This document shows positions 15,883 to 23,153 of a stretch of DNA of 64,000 nt, one piece after another (within the stretch, counting starts at the first letter, position 1; every line of letters begins with the position of its first letter). Position numbers and translations under genes: made by a program. The notes below the pieces were generated by a model. It had not been told where the DNA came from. It ran no database searches and saw only the letters and a program-made list of their open reading frames with translations. The DNA is from Candidatus Proruminimicrobium quisquiliarum (GTDB lineage: Bacteria > Elusimicrobiota > Endomicrobiia > Endomicrobiales > Endomicrobiaceae): the NCBI GenBank assembly GCA_018433245.1, contig JAHDRN010000023.1:1-64000 (forward strand). The letters are read 5' to 3'.

Positions 15883-17271
15883 TTATTTTTTGACAAATTT
15901 TGTTATTATATAAATTAGATACACTATTAATAAAAATCCTGCAAAGAAGTCTATTGTTTGCCATGTATCACGGTGAAAATGCAACTGTATTATTGGATTA
16001 AATAAGACTGCTGTTGCCAGCAATAAATAAAAGAAAATATTTTTTTTAATAAATTCTAAATAGATAATATAACAGCTTGTTGTTGTTACAGTTATTCTTA
16101 GTAATGTATAAAAGCCTGCTGAAAACTTACCATCACTAGCAATAGCCAAAAACAAAAATAATAAAGATGAAGAAATTAATATTAACAAATTTTTATGTTC
16201 TTTTAAAAAAGTTTTTAATAATGTTAATGATATAAATATTTTATATGCGGATGTTTTTATCATTGTAATTATAAATAGAATTAAAAGTATTGATAATATA
16301 CTGAAATCGATTAGATCTGCTTTGTTTTGTTTAATAAAATTTTTAATTTTAAAACTTAGCTTTTTGTTCTCTTGTTGAATAATTTTAATTTCTAGATCAT
16401 TAAGTTGTTTTAATGTTTTTTGAATATAGCCTATTTCTTGTAGTGTTGGCTCATCTTCACTTAAGTTTAATTTATGTTCTAGTAATTGTTTTTTGCAAAA
16501 TTTTAATCTAGTCCTTAGAGATTGTAAATTTTGTTGATTTGAATTTTTTAATTTTATAAGTATATTTAGATATTTATCAATGCTATCCAATCTTAAAATT
16601 AATTTATTTTTTTTAAATTCAATTTCTTGCAATTGTTTATTATCATTGAGAGTATCAGGTATCGTTATATCTTCCAATTCTGCGGGCATTGCATTTTTTG
16701 TTTGTTGAATATTATCGGCAAAAAATCCAAGTTTATTAAATTTTATATAGATTTGAGATATTAATTTTTTAGCATCTCTATCATCGTCCGGGAAAACAGT
16801 ATCATCAAAATTTATTTCATTTTTGTCAGCATCAATTATTCTTTCAAGTTTTTCTCCTGTGAGGGCAATATCAGCATCATCATCGTTTGGAAAAACAATA
16901 CCGTCAAAATTATATTTTTTAGTAGGTTGAGCCGTTATAGTATTATGTTCATTTATCTTATAATCATTTGGTGCAACAGTGTTGTCAGAAAGTAGTTTTT
17001 CTTTGTTTGTATCTTTGTTTACTTCTTGTATGAGTTGTTGTTTAAAATAATTGCGGACTTGTTGTTTTATTTTATTTTTTTGTATTTGCAATAATCCTAA
17101 GGACAACATAACAAGCACAAAAATAAAAAGTACTTTTATGATTTTTGGTATTTTGTTCAAATCTTCGGTGTTGGTTTTTTGTTTTATATCATTAAAAGGT
17201 TGTTTGCAGTTTGTGCAAAACGAATTTATATCATTATTTTTTGTATTGCAATTTTTACAAATTTTCATCAA
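15883..17271 (-). CDS. Zinc-ribbon membrane protein, unknown
   Basis: Protein of 462 aa. A zinc ribbon at the N-terminus has CxxC pairs at 5/8 and 19/22 (CKNC and CTNC). One membrane helix follows (about 42-62). A soluble part contains two related acidic motifs, FDGIVFPNDDDADI and FDDTVFPDDDRDA. Then come a long coiled coil (about 210-310) and four to five C-terminal membrane helices. No family beyond the zinc ribbon is recognised. The gene is AT-rich and lies alone between two nearly identical mosaic repeats. The second Met (17268) is equally plausible as start. Confidence 0.65.
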   Translation of the reverse strand: MMKICKNCNTKNNDINSFCTNCKQPFNDIKQKTNTEDLNKIPKIIKVLFIFVLVMLSLGLLQIQKNKIKQQVRNYFKQQLIQEVNKDTNKEKLLSDNTVAPNDYKINEHNTITAQPTKKYNFDGIVFPNDDDADIALTGEKLERIIDADKNEINFDDTVFPDDDRDAKKLISQIYIKFNKLGFFADNIQQTKNAMPAELEDITIPDTLNDNKQLQEIEFKKNKLILRLDSIDKYLNILIKLKNSNQQNLQSLRTRLKFCKKQLLEHKLNLSEDEPTLQEIGYIQKTLKQLNDLEIKIIQQENKKLSFKIKNFIKQNKADLIDFSILSILLILFIITMIKTSAYKIFISLTLLKTFLKEHKNLLILISSSLLFLFLAIASDGKFSAGFYTLLRITVTTTSCYIIYLEFIKKNIFFYLLLATAVLFNPIIQLHFHRDTWQTIDFFAGFLLIVYLIYIITKFVKK

Positions 17272-17325
17272 AACCTCTTATTTTTTATAAATTATACATT
17301 TTCTTGATGTTATTTGATATTAAAG

Positions 17326-17548
17326 TTTTATGCAGTATTTTTATTTTAGACGAGGCGGCAAAATGCGAGAGTATACTGTGAACAGCGGAGTGGTATGATG
17401 CGTTATTTTTTACTATGGATTTTAAGATGATTTTTGATTTTCTTTTGGACGAGGTATACCTAGCACAGCCGAGCGGTAGCGAGAAGGGTATCCGAAGTTC
17501 AAAAAAAATCAAAAAGGGCTTAAAAGCCGAAGTAAAAAAACTCCGAGA
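17326..17548 (+). repeat. Dispersed mosaic repeat with tRNA-Gln 3'-end block
   Basis: The first 160 bp nearly repeat 15668-15828. After a short spacer it ends in 'aaaagccgaagtaaaaaaa' followed by 'ctccgaga' (17522-17548). This last block recurs at 23063-23090, where ctccgaga is the 3' end of the tRNA-Gln gene. Confidence 0.85.
17522..17548 (-). repeat. Attachment-site-like direct repeat of tRNA-Gln end
   Basis: This 27-bp segment matches 23063-23090 with a single-A length difference. It includes 8 bp of the tRNA acceptor end plus 19-20 bp of downstream flank. It brackets the 5.5-kb segment holding the five-gene exported-protein operon. No integrase gene is visible between the copies. Confidence 0.6.
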
Positions 17549-17666
17549 TTAATACAGAATTTGAACAAATTATATCAAATTGTTATTCTGAGCTGTTAGA
17601 ATTTCATGCTAATATTTCAGCCTTAGAACGACTAATAGCGGAAATTAAACTGACAAATCATATTTA

Positions 17667-17710
17667 CTATACATTATCATGTATAGATTTATAAATAAAT
17701 AATGATTATT
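17667..17710. promoter_or_regulatory. Palindromic operator candidates
   Basis: A perfect inverted repeat CTATACA-N6-TGTATAG (17667-17686) is followed by a Fur/Per-box-like palindrome AATAAT-G-ATTATT (17698-17710). Both lie 50-95 nt upstream of the -35 box of the downstream operon. The remaining DNA between 17549 and 17760 shows no gene. Confidence 0.45.
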
Positions 17711-17759
17711 TTACATACAAATAAGTCCAATATAATATATTGTTGCTTATTATGATAAT

Positions 17760-17788
17760 TTGACAATATCACTGGGATTTAATAGAAT
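17760..17788 (+). promoter_or_regulatory. Promoter of the exported-protein operon
   Basis: TTGACA (17760-17765), 17-nt spacer, TAGAAT (17783-17788). The predicted transcription start is at about 17795, just ahead of the first gene. Confidence 0.65.
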
Positions 17789-17821
17789 CCTTCTAAAAGA
17801 TAGAGTGGATTTAATTAATTT

Positions 17822-18955
17822 TTGCATAGAGGCCTCGTGTTTTCTTTGGAAAATTTTGGAGTAAAAAACTTCTTTGTTTTTGTGTTAATGGTATTTTCTG
17901 CATCGGCATTATTTGCATCTCAAGATGTTAAATATGCCGGTTTTGCTTTTGTAGGGGATTTTGGAGATATAGCAACCCGCTTTAAATATACAAATATTTT
18001 GAATTCAAATAAAGATGAAGATGGCCGGTCAATTTTTGATAAAGAAGTTCAAATTTTTTTTCAAGATAATGCTTCCTTAATGCAAGGGATTAATCTAACA
18101 ATTGGAGAAGATTCTAACACCAAAATTGCTATGGCATTAGCAATAACACGCGAAAATATTAGCATAGTGAATATAGATGATTTTTATAAAGTAGTTGTTA
18201 ATTTATCGTGCAACTTGACATTTCTCAATTTTGACGGAATGAAAGTGGTTGCGACATATCCTATTTATCTTGAGTATATAGACGTGAGAAAAACTTTGCC
18301 GGATGAAGAGTATAAAACAAAGTTAATAGAGCAATTGTTTTTTTCTGAAGATTTTAGTGTTTTGCAAACTTTGAAGGGTCGAATGCAAAATATAACATTG
18401 AAAAATGACGCTTTTCTGAATATGAAAGTATTGAATGTTATTGTTGAAGATGAGGCCAAGTTAAACCTGCAAGAATATCAAGATAACCTTAGTATGTTTG
18501 AGAGTATTATTGCCCAGCGTTTTGCCGATACGTTATCTAATAGGTTAAATATTTCATTTCTTCCGTATTCAAAGGATTATTTAGGCGGTAAAATGTCTTT
18601 GGTTTTTTCAGATGCCAAAGTTCAAGATTTTCAGATTCCGGATGCGAGTTATGGTATAGATTTAATCATACGTAAATTAGTAAAAAATCTTTATAAAGAA
18701 GGGATAGGAGAAGATGCTTTTCTATATGGCATATATATAACAGTAAAAGTTTATGATCCGGAGCTTAATAGAATTTATTGGGATGAGAAAATTAAATTTG
18801 GTGCTGTAAAAAATATTCCAAAATTACAAAAAACATTTGATGATTTTGCTGTTTTTGATGAAATGACAGGAATCATTATGGTAGAAGCAACAAAAAAGAT
18901 TAAAGAGGATAAAAAATTTTATACGGAGGTAATTACGCGATGTTTAAACAAGTAA
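17822..18955 (+). CDS. Exported protein, first gene of FlgT/CsgG-like operon
   Basis: Protein of 377 aa or slightly less. The hydrophobic stretch FFVFVLMVFSASALFAS looks like a signal peptide cleaved before QDVKYAG. The mature part is mixed alpha/beta with no membrane helix, and I do not recognise its family. The start is uncertain: TTG 17822, GTG 17837 (after agagg) and TTG 17846 are all in frame ahead of the signal sequence, and no ATG lies upstream of it. The gene ends 16 nt inside the next one, so translation is coupled. It is probably a periplasmic or outer-membrane-associated partner of the downstream proteins. Confidence 0.7.
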   Translation: MHRGLVFSLENFGVKNFFVFVLMVFSASALFASQDVKYAGFAFVGDFGDIATRFKYTNILNSNKDEDGRSIFDKEVQIFFQDNASLMQGINLTIGEDSNTKIAMALAITRENISIVNIDDFYKVVVNLSCNLTFLNFDGMKVVATYPIYLEYIDVRKTLPDEEYKTKLIEQLFFSEDFSVLQTLKGRMQNITLKNDAFLNMKVLNVIVEDEAKLNLQEYQDNLSMFESIIAQRFADTLSNRLNISFLPYSKDYLGGKMSLVFSDAKVQDFQIPDASYGIDLIIRKLVKNLYKEGIGEDAFLYGIYITVKVYDPELNRIYWDEKIKFGAVKNIPKLQKTFDDFAVFDEMTGIIMVEATKKIKEDKKFYTEVITRCLNK

Positions 18956-19998
18956 CATTTTTAATATGTGGCATTATATTAGCAACAATGGTTGGTACTG
19001 TACAAGCTGAATATAAAAAAATTAAAGTTTTAGGTCAAGTTGAAACAAAAATAACCAAAACAGCAACTACTAATCAGAAAAAACGTGCTCTTGAAGATGC
19101 TCGCACGAAAGCTCTTAATAAATATATTGCCGGGCTTGATTCTCAGAGAGTCAGAATTTTAAATAATATTATAGATCAACTCAAAAATAATATTACAGTT
19201 TATGTACCTGATGTTGTTGCTCTTGATGATGGCAGCTGGAGTAATGGATATTGGACTATAGGGGTTGAAGCATCTATAAATGAGGCACAAATTGAGGAAA
19301 TAATAAATCAGAACATTCAATCAGCAAGTAAGAAAAAAGGTGAAGAAATTTATTTGTCTTTTGTTTTTGTTGCGCGTGAAACTGATAGCGTAAGAAAATT
19401 TGAAGATAAAAAAACAGAAATAACTTCTGAATCTGAGGCAGTCAATATATCTGAATCTGAAGATGGATTATCCGGACAAAACGAAAGAGTAATGGAAAAA
19501 ACTTCAGGCGGTTCAACAGAAAAAAAAGCCGACAAGTTTTCGTATAGAAGTTATATTCCTGAAGATATAGGAAGTAAAGTTTCAGAAGTTTTTAATAAAG
19601 CTGAATATTCCGTTGTCGAACCTTTTGAAGCAAATATTGATACTAAAAGTTTTATTTCTGATTTTGTTGAAGGAGATGAAATTTCAGATGTTACAAAAAA
19701 AACTGCTACTTCAGCTGCAAGGTCAGCCGGTTTAAATTATCTTGCAGTTGCCACATTAGATGTTGGCGAACAGATGGTTGACCAAGCAACAGGTATGAAA
19801 AAAGTTTATGTTAGGGTAAATGGATATATTTGGGATCTTGAAGGCAAATTTGTAAGAAAGGTGTGCAGTGTTGGCCCTGTTCAGTACAGTGGTCTTGGCG
19901 AAGATTTTAAGGTGGCAAAAACAAATGCTTTAATAAATGCTGCTTCGTCCGCAGCTAAAGATCTTGTTGATCAATTAAGGCTTAAACAAAGCAGGTAA
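18940..19998 (+). CDS. FlgT-N/LPP20-like exported protein
   Basis: Protein of 352 aa with a signal peptide cleaved after VQA (about residue 23). Residues about 25-140 have the pattern of FlgT N-terminal/LPP20-type domains: 'KIKVLGQVE', then a helix with ALEDARTKALNKYI, then a strand 'GYWTIGVEASINEAQI'. A Ser/Glu-rich low-complexity linker (about 155-190) leads to a second domain with DALIN-like helices (KTNALINAASSAAKDLV). Such domains occur in proteins that assemble on the outer membrane. The start has a ggagg ribosome-binding site and overlaps the preceding stop. The family call is by pattern only. Confidence 0.6.
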   Translation: MFKQVTFLICGIILATMVGTVQAEYKKIKVLGQVETKITKTATTNQKKRALEDARTKALNKYIAGLDSQRVRILNNIIDQLKNNITVYVPDVVALDDGSWSNGYWTIGVEASINEAQIEEIINQNIQSASKKKGEEIYLSFVFVARETDSVRKFEDKKTEITSESEAVNISESEDGLSGQNERVMEKTSGGSTEKKADKFSYRSYIPEDIGSKVSEVFNKAEYSVVEPFEANIDTKSFISDFVEGDEISDVTKKTATSAARSAGLNYLAVATLDVGEQMVDQATGMKKVYVRVNGYIWDLEGKFVRKVCSVGPVQYSGLGEDFKVAKTNALINAASSAAKDLVDQLRLKQSR

Positions 19999-20022
19999 TT
20001 TAACAAAGGCTAAGGAGAGAAA

Positions 20023-20703
20023 ATGAAAAAGTCAGCTTTATTTGTTGTAGTTGCTGTTATGTTTTTTGTAACCAATTCGGTATTTGCTGGATTTGGTGGG
20101 TTAGGAAAAACTCTGTCTGGTGCAACTGGTGGTGGTAGCGGAGCAAGTTCATCAGACTTAAGTGCTTCTAAAGACAGTGCTGTTAAATCTTATTTAGCAA
20201 CTACTCAAGAGTTAATTGCGAGTTTGGAAAAATCAGGTGAGGCATTTGGTGTAAAAAAAGAAGTTCTTGAAAAATTGGCGGCTGTTAACTCACTAAAAGA
20301 AGGAAATATTAATGCTGGCAATGTTGATAAAGCTCAACAAGCATCTAAAGAAGCAGTAGAAGTGATTGAAAAACAAATGGCTGATAAAAAGGAGTTAAGT
20401 GCTGAATCTCAAGCATTGTTGGGGCAGAGCATGGGGCATTTAGCAAAAGCCATTGTGATGGAAACAGAACTTGTTGGAACTGTACAGACATTATCTACTC
20501 AGGCGCAGTCAGCCGTTTCTAGTGCTTCTCCTATGGATGTTGCGAAATTAAAAGGTATTGCAGATGTCTCATTGACTTTAGCTAAAGCACTCCCTACGGA
20601 TTTAAAACTCTCTAAAGATATTTTAGGTTCGTATATGTCATATGCGAAATCTAAAAATATTTCTGTTCCAAAAGATGCAACAGCTTTGCTTGGTGGCGAA
20701 TAA
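20023..20703 (+). CDS. Exported helical protein, unknown
   Basis: Protein of 226 aa with a clear signal peptide (cleavage after VFA, about residue 23). A Gly/Ser-rich stretch (FGGLGKTLSGATGGGSGASS) is followed by an almost entirely helical mature part. No family is recognised. It has an aaggagag ribosome-binding site. Its place between the FlgT-N-like and CsgG-like genes suggests a soluble or secreted component or client of that system. Confidence 0.65.
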   Translation: MKKSALFVVVAVMFFVTNSVFAGFGGLGKTLSGATGGGSGASSSDLSASKDSAVKSYLATTQELIASLEKSGEAFGVKKEVLEKLAAVNSLKEGNINAGNVDKAQQASKEAVEVIEKQMADKKELSAESQALLGQSMGHLAKAIVMETELVGTVQTLSTQAQSAVSSASPMDVAKLKGIADVSLTLAKALPTDLKLSKDILGSYMSYAKSKNISVPKDATALLGGE

Positions 20704-20708
20704 TCAAT

Positions 20709-21713
20709 ATGTTTAAAAAAAAACTGTTGCTTATAACTGTTCTTTTTTGTTTTCTTTTTACCGGTAGGGCTTATACTGAAAATAGTTTGAGTGTTACTGG
20801 TCAAAAAGATATACCGCTGGCTATTGCAATATTTACAAATAATAACACTAACAATCCAAATTATGATAAATATGGGGATATGCTCTGTTCTGCAATAGCT
20901 AGTCAAATAACCGGGAAATTTACAGTTATAAATAAAAATGATGTTATAAATGTTTTTAGACAAGAGAATATCAAAAGCAGTTTCAAAATATCAAATTTTA
21001 GGGATTATTTGCAATTGCTTTCTGTATTAAAACAAGAAGAAAATAAATCAAATAAAGAAGATGCTGTTGATAAAAAAACAATTGAACAAAAGGCTTCTGC
21101 TTTGAGAATTTCTCAAGCAATAGGGGCCAAATATTTGCTTATTGCTGATATAGAAGACATAGTTGTTAATAATATTACAGATACAGTTTATAACAATCAA
21201 ATTAATGATTTAAAAATAACAGCCGACATTGCCGTTAAAATTCTAAATGGTGTAAATGCTGGAACAATTTTAGCAGAGAATATTCGTGTTCAAAAGAGAG
21301 TTCATGGGAATCAACAAAGTAATTTTACATTCGCAGATATTGAACAATCTTTACCAATTCTCATTAATCAAGCCTCTAAAGATATTTCCGTAAAAATTCT
21401 AGACAATATTGACACTGTCAAAACTTCAAAAGCTGATATAGAAAGTGTTAGATTTAATGTAAAAACTAATGTTTCTGATGCAACAGTTGAATTAGACGGA
21501 ATTCTTATAGAAACTGTAGACGGAGAATTTTTTGCAATGCCAGGCTTACATAGATTAAGAGTTACAAGAGATGGATACCGCACTTTTGAAAGAGATATTA
21601 ATGTAATAGCCAATGCGGAGTTTATAGTAAATTTAAAAGAAATCGAAAAGCCACTAGATATACAAGAACAAAATACAAAATTAGAATCAAAAGTAAGCGA
21701 AAAACAAAAGTAA
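20709..21713 (+). CDS. CsgG/TolB-N-like exported protein with PEGA domain
   Basis: Protein of 334 aa with an N-terminal signal sequence ending near TGRAYTE. Residues about 35-200 follow the CsgG/TolB N-terminal scheme: a strand IPLAIAIFTN, a helix GDMLCSAIASQI, FTVINKNDV, and a helix ALRISQAIGAKYLLIADIE. Residues about 245-315 resemble a PEGA domain (VSDATVELDGI, then GLHRLRVTRDGYRTFERDI). PEGA-type domains are associated with cell-surface proteins. It follows the previous gene by 5 nt without a strong ribosome-binding site, so translation is probably coupled. Confidence 0.65.
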   Translation: MFKKKLLLITVLFCFLFTGRAYTENSLSVTGQKDIPLAIAIFTNNNTNNPNYDKYGDMLCSAIASQITGKFTVINKNDVINVFRQENIKSSFKISNFRDYLQLLSVLKQEENKSNKEDAVDKKTIEQKASALRISQAIGAKYLLIADIEDIVVNNITDTVYNNQINDLKITADIAVKILNGVNAGTILAENIRVQKRVHGNQQSNFTFADIEQSLPILINQASKDISVKILDNIDTVKTSKADIESVRFNVKTNVSDATVELDGILIETVDGEFFAMPGLHRLRVTRDGYRTFERDINVIANAEFIVNLKEIEKPLDIQEQNTKLESKVSEKQK

Positions 21714-21775
21714 TTTTAACTTAATGATAGTTTATGTAAGACTGTAGTTTATGATTGATAAAGAGGTATATTAAT

Positions 21776-22693
21776 ATGCATAGGTTAAAGTTTTTATTTT
21801 TTGTATGTATAGCTTATTTTTGTGTTATATCAACAACATATGCAGAGAAGATAAAAATAGGTTTTATTGAAGAAATAGATACATCTGTAGATGTTCCGAG
21901 CGTAATTCAACAAAATCTCAAAGAAAGTATTAGGCATGCTTTGGTAAACTCGGGAAAATTTGATGTGTTTGATAGAAATCAAAAAGATCTTAGCCGTCTT
22001 TTTGAAGAAATGAAGTTTTCAGATGAACGACTCGGCCAAGTTGATATAAATGATTCTAAAAAAGCAGAATTTGGCAAAATATCCGGCATAGAATATATTG
22101 TTCTTTTAGGGATTAATGATTTTCTTGTTGGCCAAGAGAAATCTAAATTTCAAAAACCTCTTGCTGATGAGAAAAGTTTTATTCGGTTAGGAGTTAGTTT
22201 AAGACTGCTCAATTCATCTACCGGTAAAATTCAACTAGAGAAAAATATAATTGAAAAACAATATTCTTTAATAAAATTAACAAATGAAGAATTTGATATA
22301 GTATTGTCAAATAAAACAATAAATCTATTAACAAGAAAAATCACCCGTCAAATTATTGAAGAATTGTATCCGATTTTAATACTTGAAAAAACAGGTACTA
22401 GTGCTTTTATTAATTGTGGAAAAGATGCAGGTATTGTAGTTGGCGAAGAATTTGAAGTTTATGCTACAAAAAATGTCCTAGATGATGGAACTCTTAATAA
22501 TCTTGCAATTGAAAAATCAGTTGGAAAAGTAAAAGTGATTCGAATATCTCCCAAAACTTCGGAAGTTGAGATTATAGAAGATTTTGGTATAGATAAAGGA
22601 TGTATAATCAGATCTCAAGACAATGAAAATCAACCTGTGAAAAAAAATATCTCAGAAAACATTCAAAAGAAAAAGAATACTGACGATTGGTAA
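21776..22693 (+). CDS. CsgG-like exported protein with FlgT-C-like tail
   Basis: Start ATG 21776 follows aaagagg; an upstream in-frame TTG at 21755 is unlikely. The product of about 305 aa begins with a signal peptide cleaved near TYA (about residue 20). The mature N-terminal part has IKIGFIEE, KFDVFDRNQKDL and KISGIEYIVLLGI, matching the CsgG scheme. The C-terminal part (about 205-285) has INCGKDAGIVVGEEFEVY and GKVKVIRISPKTSEVEI, like FlgT C-terminal domains. It ends in a Lys-rich tail. It is the last gene of the operon. Confidence 0.65.
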   Translation: MHRLKFLFFVCIAYFCVISTTYAEKIKIGFIEEIDTSVDVPSVIQQNLKESIRHALVNSGKFDVFDRNQKDLSRLFEEMKFSDERLGQVDINDSKKAEFGKISGIEYIVLLGINDFLVGQEKSKFQKPLADEKSFIRLGVSLRLLNSSTGKIQLEKNIIEKQYSLIKLTNEEFDIVLSNKTINLLTRKITRQIIEELYPILILEKTGTSAFINCGKDAGIVVGEEFEVYATKNVLDDGTLNNLAIEKSVGKVKVIRISPKTSEVEIIEDFGIDKGCIIRSQDNENQPVKKNISENIQKKKNTDDW

Positions 22694-22756
22694 GAGAATA
22701 ATTGCATTTTATCAAAATCAAAAAACCCGAAACACATATAAAGTTTGAAAATATAT

Positions 22757-23082
22757 CCAACAAATTGCTTTGCGTACCGGCAATGATATTATAATAATTT
22801 TAATATAAATATGCTATGGAGTGAAATATAGAGAACAACAATTTAATGCGAGAGAAAAATGTTTTGCCTTGCGATTTTTACGAAGGATTTTAGGCTGTTT
22901 GGCGGATTTATCAATTCTATTGATAAACCGAAGATGATTTTCTTTTGGACGACAAATTTTTACAAGTATTTTTTGGTTAGACGAGAAGTGAGGATGTGAG
23001 CGTGTACTGTGAACAGGCGGAGCCGGAGGTACCCGAACATCCGAACGACGCAGTATAAACAAAAAAGCCGAAGTAAAAAAAA
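22757..23082 (+). repeat. Dispersed mosaic repeat, composite copy
   Basis: Shares a 'caaattgctttgcgtaccgg' block with 15583-15602 and its AT-rich continuation. It then has a hairpin block with enlarged stem (TTTATCAAT-tct-ATTGATAAA, 22907-22927) flanked by the same ggcgga/ccgaaga as at 13203-13228. Next come a 'tgtactgtgaacaggcggagccg' block and the 'acccgaac...gacgcagtataaac' block shared with 15544-15577. It abuts the tRNA-Gln 3' end. No coding region is seen between 22694 and 23082. Confidence 0.8.
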
Positions 23083-23153
23083 CTCCGAGACTAGGATTCG
23101 AACCTAGACAAAGAGATCCAAATTCTCTTGTGCTGCCATTACACCATCTCGGA
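23083..23153 (-). tRNA. tRNA-Gln (anticodon UUG)
   Basis: The minus strand folds as a cloverleaf. A 7-bp acceptor stem is formed by tccgaga/tctcgga, with discriminator G. A D-arm and an anticodon stem agaga/tctct follow, with loop ATTTGGA giving anticodon TTG. The T-arm is tctagGTTCGAATcctag-like. CCA is not encoded. The gene lies between the island and spoVG and is probably co-transcribed with spoVG. Confidence 0.93.

Follow-up and report, generated by a model that had tools for sequence, protein, structure and literature searches.

A conserved cassette of exported FlgT- and CsgG-type proteins in Candidatus Proruminimicrobium quisquiliarum, a candidate non-flagellar envelope scaffold

To our knowledge, nearly all known modules of the FlgT, FlgP and FlgO type are additions to the flagellar motor. 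An operon with such modules was found in Candidatus Proruminimicrobium quisquiliarum, a bacterium that appears to have no flagellum. The window analyzed here is a stretch of 64,000 nt (assembly GCA_018433245.1, contig JAHDRN010000023.1, positions 1–64,000), and the operon occupies positions 17822–22693 on its plus strand. It consists of five tightly packed genes, all judged to be real, with one promoter-like sequence ahead of them:

17760–17788, plus strand: sigma-70-like promoter, TTGACA-N17-TAGAAT, a consensus match only
17822–18955, plus strand: p1, exported protein with a predicted repeated FlgT_M/CsgG/LptE-type fold and a conserved near-terminal Cys
18940–19998, plus strand: p2, exported protein with a FlgT_N-like domain, a predicted CsgG/FlgT_M-type fold and a disordered insert (residues 157–195)
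20023–20703, plus strand: p3, exported protein of 226 aa, rich in Ala, Ser and Gly, probably helical, of an unnamed family
20709–21713, plus strand: p4, exported accessory protein with a PEGA domain and a weakly CsgG-like N-terminal part
21755–22693, plus strand: p5, exported protein with CsgG/FlgT_M-type and FlgT_C modules, ending in TDDW

The p1 and p2 genes overlap by 16 nt, and gaps of 24 and 5 nt separate p2 from p3 and p3 from p4. For p5, an ATG at 21776 is likely to be the start rather than position 21755, which leaves about 62 nt behind p4; p1 may begin at a GTG (17837, with AGAGG just upstream) instead of the TTG at 17822. As originally predicted, all five products were found to carry N-terminal Sec-type signal sequences when read by eye, that of p4 being the weakest; no lipobox was seen in p1–p5 of the window by the same reading. 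The consensus promoter with which the operon had been credited was found as a near-consensus sequence: TTGACA-N17-TAGAAT was the only 11/12 sigma-70 match in 17250–23100 and lies just ahead of p1, while the number of promoter-like sites in the region was at chance level (32 observed vs. 28 ± 5 by chance). Two upstream palindromes that had been listed as a feature carry no weight as evidence, because their arms are 8 nt long in AT-rich DNA and one of them lies inside a dispersed genomic repeat. Positions 17340–17560 belong to a dispersed repeat family, for which about 20 significant genomic matches were counted. The GC3 of the operon was 0.16–0.24 compared to 0.31–0.39 in those core genes of the window for which it was determined, although some other window genes were equally low, and an Rfam scan of the locus found nothing besides tRNA.

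The modules could be assigned most directly in p5, which showed both predicted parts just above the Pfam cut-offs: FlgT_C with 30.2 bits (cut-off 27) and CsgG with 21.3 bits (cut-off 20.8). CsgG reached 31–42 bits in the p5 homologues of loci L079, L081, and L082, and FlgT_C 28.2 bits in that of L081. Among PDB sequences, the p5-family profile matched TsaP (3jc8, E = 6e-5, in the FlgT_C-type part) and Escherichia coli CsgG. The proteobacterial homologues contain an extra N-terminal domain, with sub-threshold LPP20 matches in L082 and L083, and in homologues with this extra segment FlgT_M and FlgT_C were below the Pfam cut-off or absent. Window p5 is not a full FlgT with FlgT_N, FlgT_M, and FlgT_C in one protein, as it has no N domain, and by sequence comparison this layout is one variant within the family. 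Its signal sequence ends in a site of the signal-peptidase-I type (TTYA/EK, by eye), and reading by eye revealed a lipobox in a number of FlgT-like homologues (L084, L086, L088, L090, and L094). For p4, predicted to combine PEGA and CsgG-like parts, the PEGA domain was found (23.7 bits, cut-off 20.8; 41.7 bits in the L081 copy), but the CsgG-like part is weak, with an hhalign P-value of 2.4e-4 and a probability of 44% against the p5 family.

No significant Pfam match was obtained for p1, p2, or p3, and NCBIfam assigned none of the five proteins to a family. Structures predicted by AlphaFold2 from family alignments had a mean pLDDT of 86.5 for p1 and 78 for p2. In Foldseek searches against PDB, p1 matched the Vibrio LPHT flagellar ring best (8z5n, 7.5e-7), followed by FlgT (3w1e, 2.8e-5) and then HpaA, CsgG, and LptE. 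The best match of p2 was also 8z5n (6.8e-7), next to FlgT 3w1e (8.6e-7), then CT253, GNA1162, TolB, and PelC, with weak matches to Lpp20 and HP1454. The predicted kinship with CsgG and FlgT was thus seen at the level of fold class and not as close similarity or a particular oligomeric form, the TM-scores being 0.2–0.3 over whole chains and 0.4–0.56 for single-domain targets. On the basis of these models p1, hitherto unrecognized like p3, is placed in the FlgT_M/CsgG/LptE fold group, and its predicted secondary structure looks like two copies of the fold in tandem; neither Pfam nor the PDB sequences yielded a convincing relative of p3. The N-terminal part of p2 matched Desulfobacterota proteins of about 400 aa, two of which (L122 and L119) scored above the FlgT_N cut-off, and the FlgT-like profile retrieved the same proteins. 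The FlgT_N/LPP20-like character predicted for p2 is therefore supported transitively and by fold, not by a direct Pfam match. No significant sequence link between p1 or p2 and the p5 family was found by hhalign. The idea that FlgT and CsgG modules are spread over separate proteins of the operon agrees with the Pfam matches of p5, the transitive and fold matches of p2, and the fold of p1.

Homologous loci were searched for in plasmids, phages, viral contigs, and genomes. A tblastn search of plasmids with p1 and p2 detected neighboring homologues of both in Cupriavidus metallidurans CH34 and Caballeronia, and these seeded the alignments and a productive genome scan, which was followed by profile searches including further Burkholderiales genomes. 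The scan yielded 14 loci from Omnitrophota, Desulfobacteraceae, Geobacter, Burkholderiales, Dyella, Nevskiaceae, and relatives of Alteromonas. A scan of genome contigs with p2 as a single protein gave no match, and nothing useful came from tblastn searches of plasmids with p3, p4, and p5 or of phages with p2, or from the p2 profile against viral contigs.

Including the window, 23 loci were readable (the 22 homologous ones comprise two near-identical Pandoraea loci), from beta- and gamma-Proteobacteria, Desulfobacterota, and one Omnitrophota metagenome-assembled genome. The genes p1, p2, and p3 were contiguous and co-directional in all 23. A p5 or FlgT-like gene was next to them or nearby in 21: in 18 it lies downstream, behind p4 in the case of the window and L081, and in the other three it lies two genes upstream. 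No recognizable FlgT-like gene was present at two Alteromonadales loci from Alteromonas relatives, which do have p1–p3. Conserved co-occurrence thus holds for p1–p3 and largely for the FlgT-like gene, but not for all five genes, since no locus other than the window and L081 contained p4; from this distribution p4 is a lineage-specific extra and not a core member of the cassette. Two more divergent loci from the order Burkholderiales (L150 and L152) contained p1 and p2 homologues without a detectable p3. As the gene set is conserved in other phyla, it is not a product of chance.

The cassette is rare. The full set was found in 7/300 genomes of the order Burkholderiales, and full-length p2 in 1/297 Desulfobacterota genomes; for Omnitrophota the count was 1/237. 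None of 99 other genomes related to the window genome, from the same genus to the same phylum, contained p2, and no convincing full-length match to p1, p3, or p4 was found in 198 such genomes. Proteins with CsgG and FlgT_C resembling p5 occurred, in differing settings, in 17 of 149 other related genomes. The absence of p1–p4 from these relatives (99–198 searched) suggests that the cassette was probably acquired horizontally. Its nearest relative is L081, a 5.4-kb Omnitrophota contig with all five genes (54–74% identical), although its placement in Omnitrophota may be a binning error. Repeats lie on both sides of the L081 cassette, and the start of a transposase-like gene was seen by eye downstream. 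Integration at a tRNA-Gln gene in the window was considered and rejected, as the flanking direct repeats (17522–17551 and 23063–23093) belong to the dispersed genomic repeat; as to an empty site, the contig of the sole congener stops just past the tRNA, and unrelated genes follow tRNA-Gln in four other members of the family.

Besides gene order, two C-terminal ends were conserved. In 20 of the 21 loci with a readable end, the last residue of the FlgT-like protein or p5 is Trp or Tyr, with Asp, Asn, Lys, or Glu directly before it in an acidic stretch; in the window, L081, and L082, the protein has no Trp besides this one. Of 14 aligned p1 proteins, 12 end in Cys-[Lys/Arg/Met] or, for the window and L081 copies, in Cys-Leu-Asn-Lys, and seven further loci show such an end as well; this Cys is often the only one outside the signal sequence. 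Both ends look like docking or cross-linking tails. A vicinal Cys-Cys pair was observed in a conserved strand of the C domain of the FlgT-like proteins of L079, L084, L086, L088, L090, and L094, not in the window copy.

The reading that we favor, and to which we give an even chance, is that the operon specifies a periplasmic scaffold of FlgT-type modules that is associated with the outer membrane and is not flagellar. In the Vibrio polar flagellum, FlgO, FlgP, and FlgT make up the H-ring, which has a role in outer-membrane penetration (PMC7990780; PMC6375700), and FlgP, Lpp20, and FlgT have related folds and form rings (PMC12222027; PMC11756786). By analogy, p1 with its repeated M-type fold, p2 with N and M, and p5 with M and C would co-assemble under the outer membrane, probably as a ring or another oligomer. 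In Proteobacteria, the part of p5 would fall to a longer protein that is N+M+C-like and in many cases a lipoprotein. We infer that the secreted p3, for which a role as client or plug had been suggested, would be a structural subunit or a component positioned by the scaffold, that the flexible p5 tail may dock a partner through its terminal acidic-Trp motif, and that p4 may serve in this lineage as a tether through its PEGA domain. Counting against such a scaffold, M-type domains also resemble LptE, HpaA, PelC, TolB, and GNA1162, which are proteins with different jobs; no conserved flanking gene points to a client, and the two Alteromonadales loci have no FlgT-like gene.

The closest known system is the Vibrio H-ring itself, which shares FlgT-type modules on exported proteins and gives the best fold matches of p1 and p2. 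It differs in the distribution of its modules, window p5 having no N domain, and the cassette has p1 and p3 as extra conserved members. That the cassette is a true motor accessory of H-ring type is nevertheless extremely improbable: FlhA was present in 10 of the 14 cassette-bearing genomes checked, which fits such a role, as does the FlgT_C module of p5, but the window genome is 100% complete and has no FlhA (PF00771), which makes a flagellar role unlikely in this genome. Three further genomes with the cassette, whose completeness is not known, have no FlhA either, and no flagellar genes flanked the cassettes when the ORF tables were read by eye. An envelope pore, which had originally been suggested beside an assembly complex, would be a CsgG-type lipoprotein barrel of p5, perhaps with p4, that secretes p3 through the outer membrane, with p1 and p2 as periplasmic gating or assembly factors. 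The CsgG core in p5 and its homologues and the small exported p3 that is always encoded alongside are in line with it. However, alignment of the p5 family with E. coli CsgG showed that the constriction loop is missing, that the first hairpin segment is shorter and charged and is deleted in L085 and L089, and that the second is reduced; window p5, read by eye, has no lipobox for an N-terminal lipidated Cys. These features at the sequence level make a CsgG-type barrel distinctly unlikely, and the suggested pore is not supported. Furthermore, the FlgT_C and LPP20/FlgT_N modules indicate FlgT rather than CsgG, and no curli partner genes were recognized in the operon.

Two other roles in the envelope were weighed. 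The cassette might support the secretin of a type IV or Tad pilus in the manner of TsaP, with which the p5 family shares the FlgT_C-type region. A genome from the order of the window genome has a Tad pilus locus (L042, 2757–11214) with secretin and TadE genes, in which the gene for a CsgG+FlgT_C protein is flanked by those for RcpC/CpaB and a Tad-type ATPase. Together with the TsaP match, this indicates that FlgT_C/CsgG modules also serve non-flagellar outer-membrane machines, which speaks for the favored scaffold. The TsaP entries in PDB are LysM proteins, whereas no Pfam LysM match was found in p1–p5, and no pilus or secretin gene was seen by eye near the cassette at any locus, so that a pilus anchor is very unlikely. 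It is unlikely, too, that the proteins are accessory factors like Lpo, TolB, or PelC, which would control peptidoglycan synthases or a polysaccharide exporter by binding to them, with p3 as a helical regulatory partner. The p2 matches to GNA1162, TolB, and PelC and weak LpoB matches throughout the p5 family would agree with this, but the latter reached only 13.8 bits (window p5) to 22 bits (L090) against an NCBIfam cut-off of 110.55, and genes for penicillin-binding proteins or polysaccharides do not adjoin the cassette in any consistent way. A defense function against phages was rejected, as PADLOC recognized no family among nine proteins.

Helicobacter Lpp20 (HP1456) and HP1454, encoded in one operon, and Campylobacter FlgP, which forms basal-disk rings (PMC11756786; PMC12222027), are likewise exported proteins of the LPP20/SHS2 type. 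No CsgG/FlgT_C module is described there, and the gene content is unlike that of the cassette. In Omnitrophota, adjacent genes for LPP20 repeats, a FlgT_N-like N+M-like protein, and a CsgG+FlgT_C-like protein were found in L098 (6894–10334) and L099 (23–3329), but no p1 or p3 was found there and the p2-profile matches cover only part of the profile. The cassette is thus a conserved and previously unnamed combination of known modules. It was correctly regarded as undescribed as a system, as Pfam, NCBIfam, and PADLOC gave no match to it; a search for literature on this gene set or on non-flagellar systems with FlgT-like or LPP20 domains, which covered few subscription journals, gave nothing relevant.

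A bolder version of the scaffold, which we consider doubtful, is a horizontally spread envelope machine, non-flagellar and patchily distributed over several phyla, in which a periplasmic ring of p1, p2, and the FlgT-like protein would export or display p3 and the acidic-Trp C-terminus would be a docking signal. A conserved four-gene cassette that brings such modules into a genome without FlhA, with three families that have no Pfam or NCBIfam match, would point to a wider part for H-ring-type modules in the diderm envelope, and it is a compact gene set open to testing, e.g., in C. metallidurans CH34.

Flanking genes common to the loci in general were not found, and none revealed a client. Some were shared by smaller groups of loci. 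A DUF6844 protein is encoded behind the cassette in both Desulfobacteraceae (L082, 11145–12476, with a Pfam match; L083, 11157–12506). In the two Alteromonas relatives without a FlgT-like gene, a gene for a papain-family protease is divergent from the cassette (L092, 5251–6633; L093, 5396–6700). In the Caballeronia/Burkholderia loci L080 (6789–7935), L085 (5167–6292), and L089 (5368–6559), the interval from the FlgT-like gene to p1 encodes two more conserved small, exported-looking proteins.
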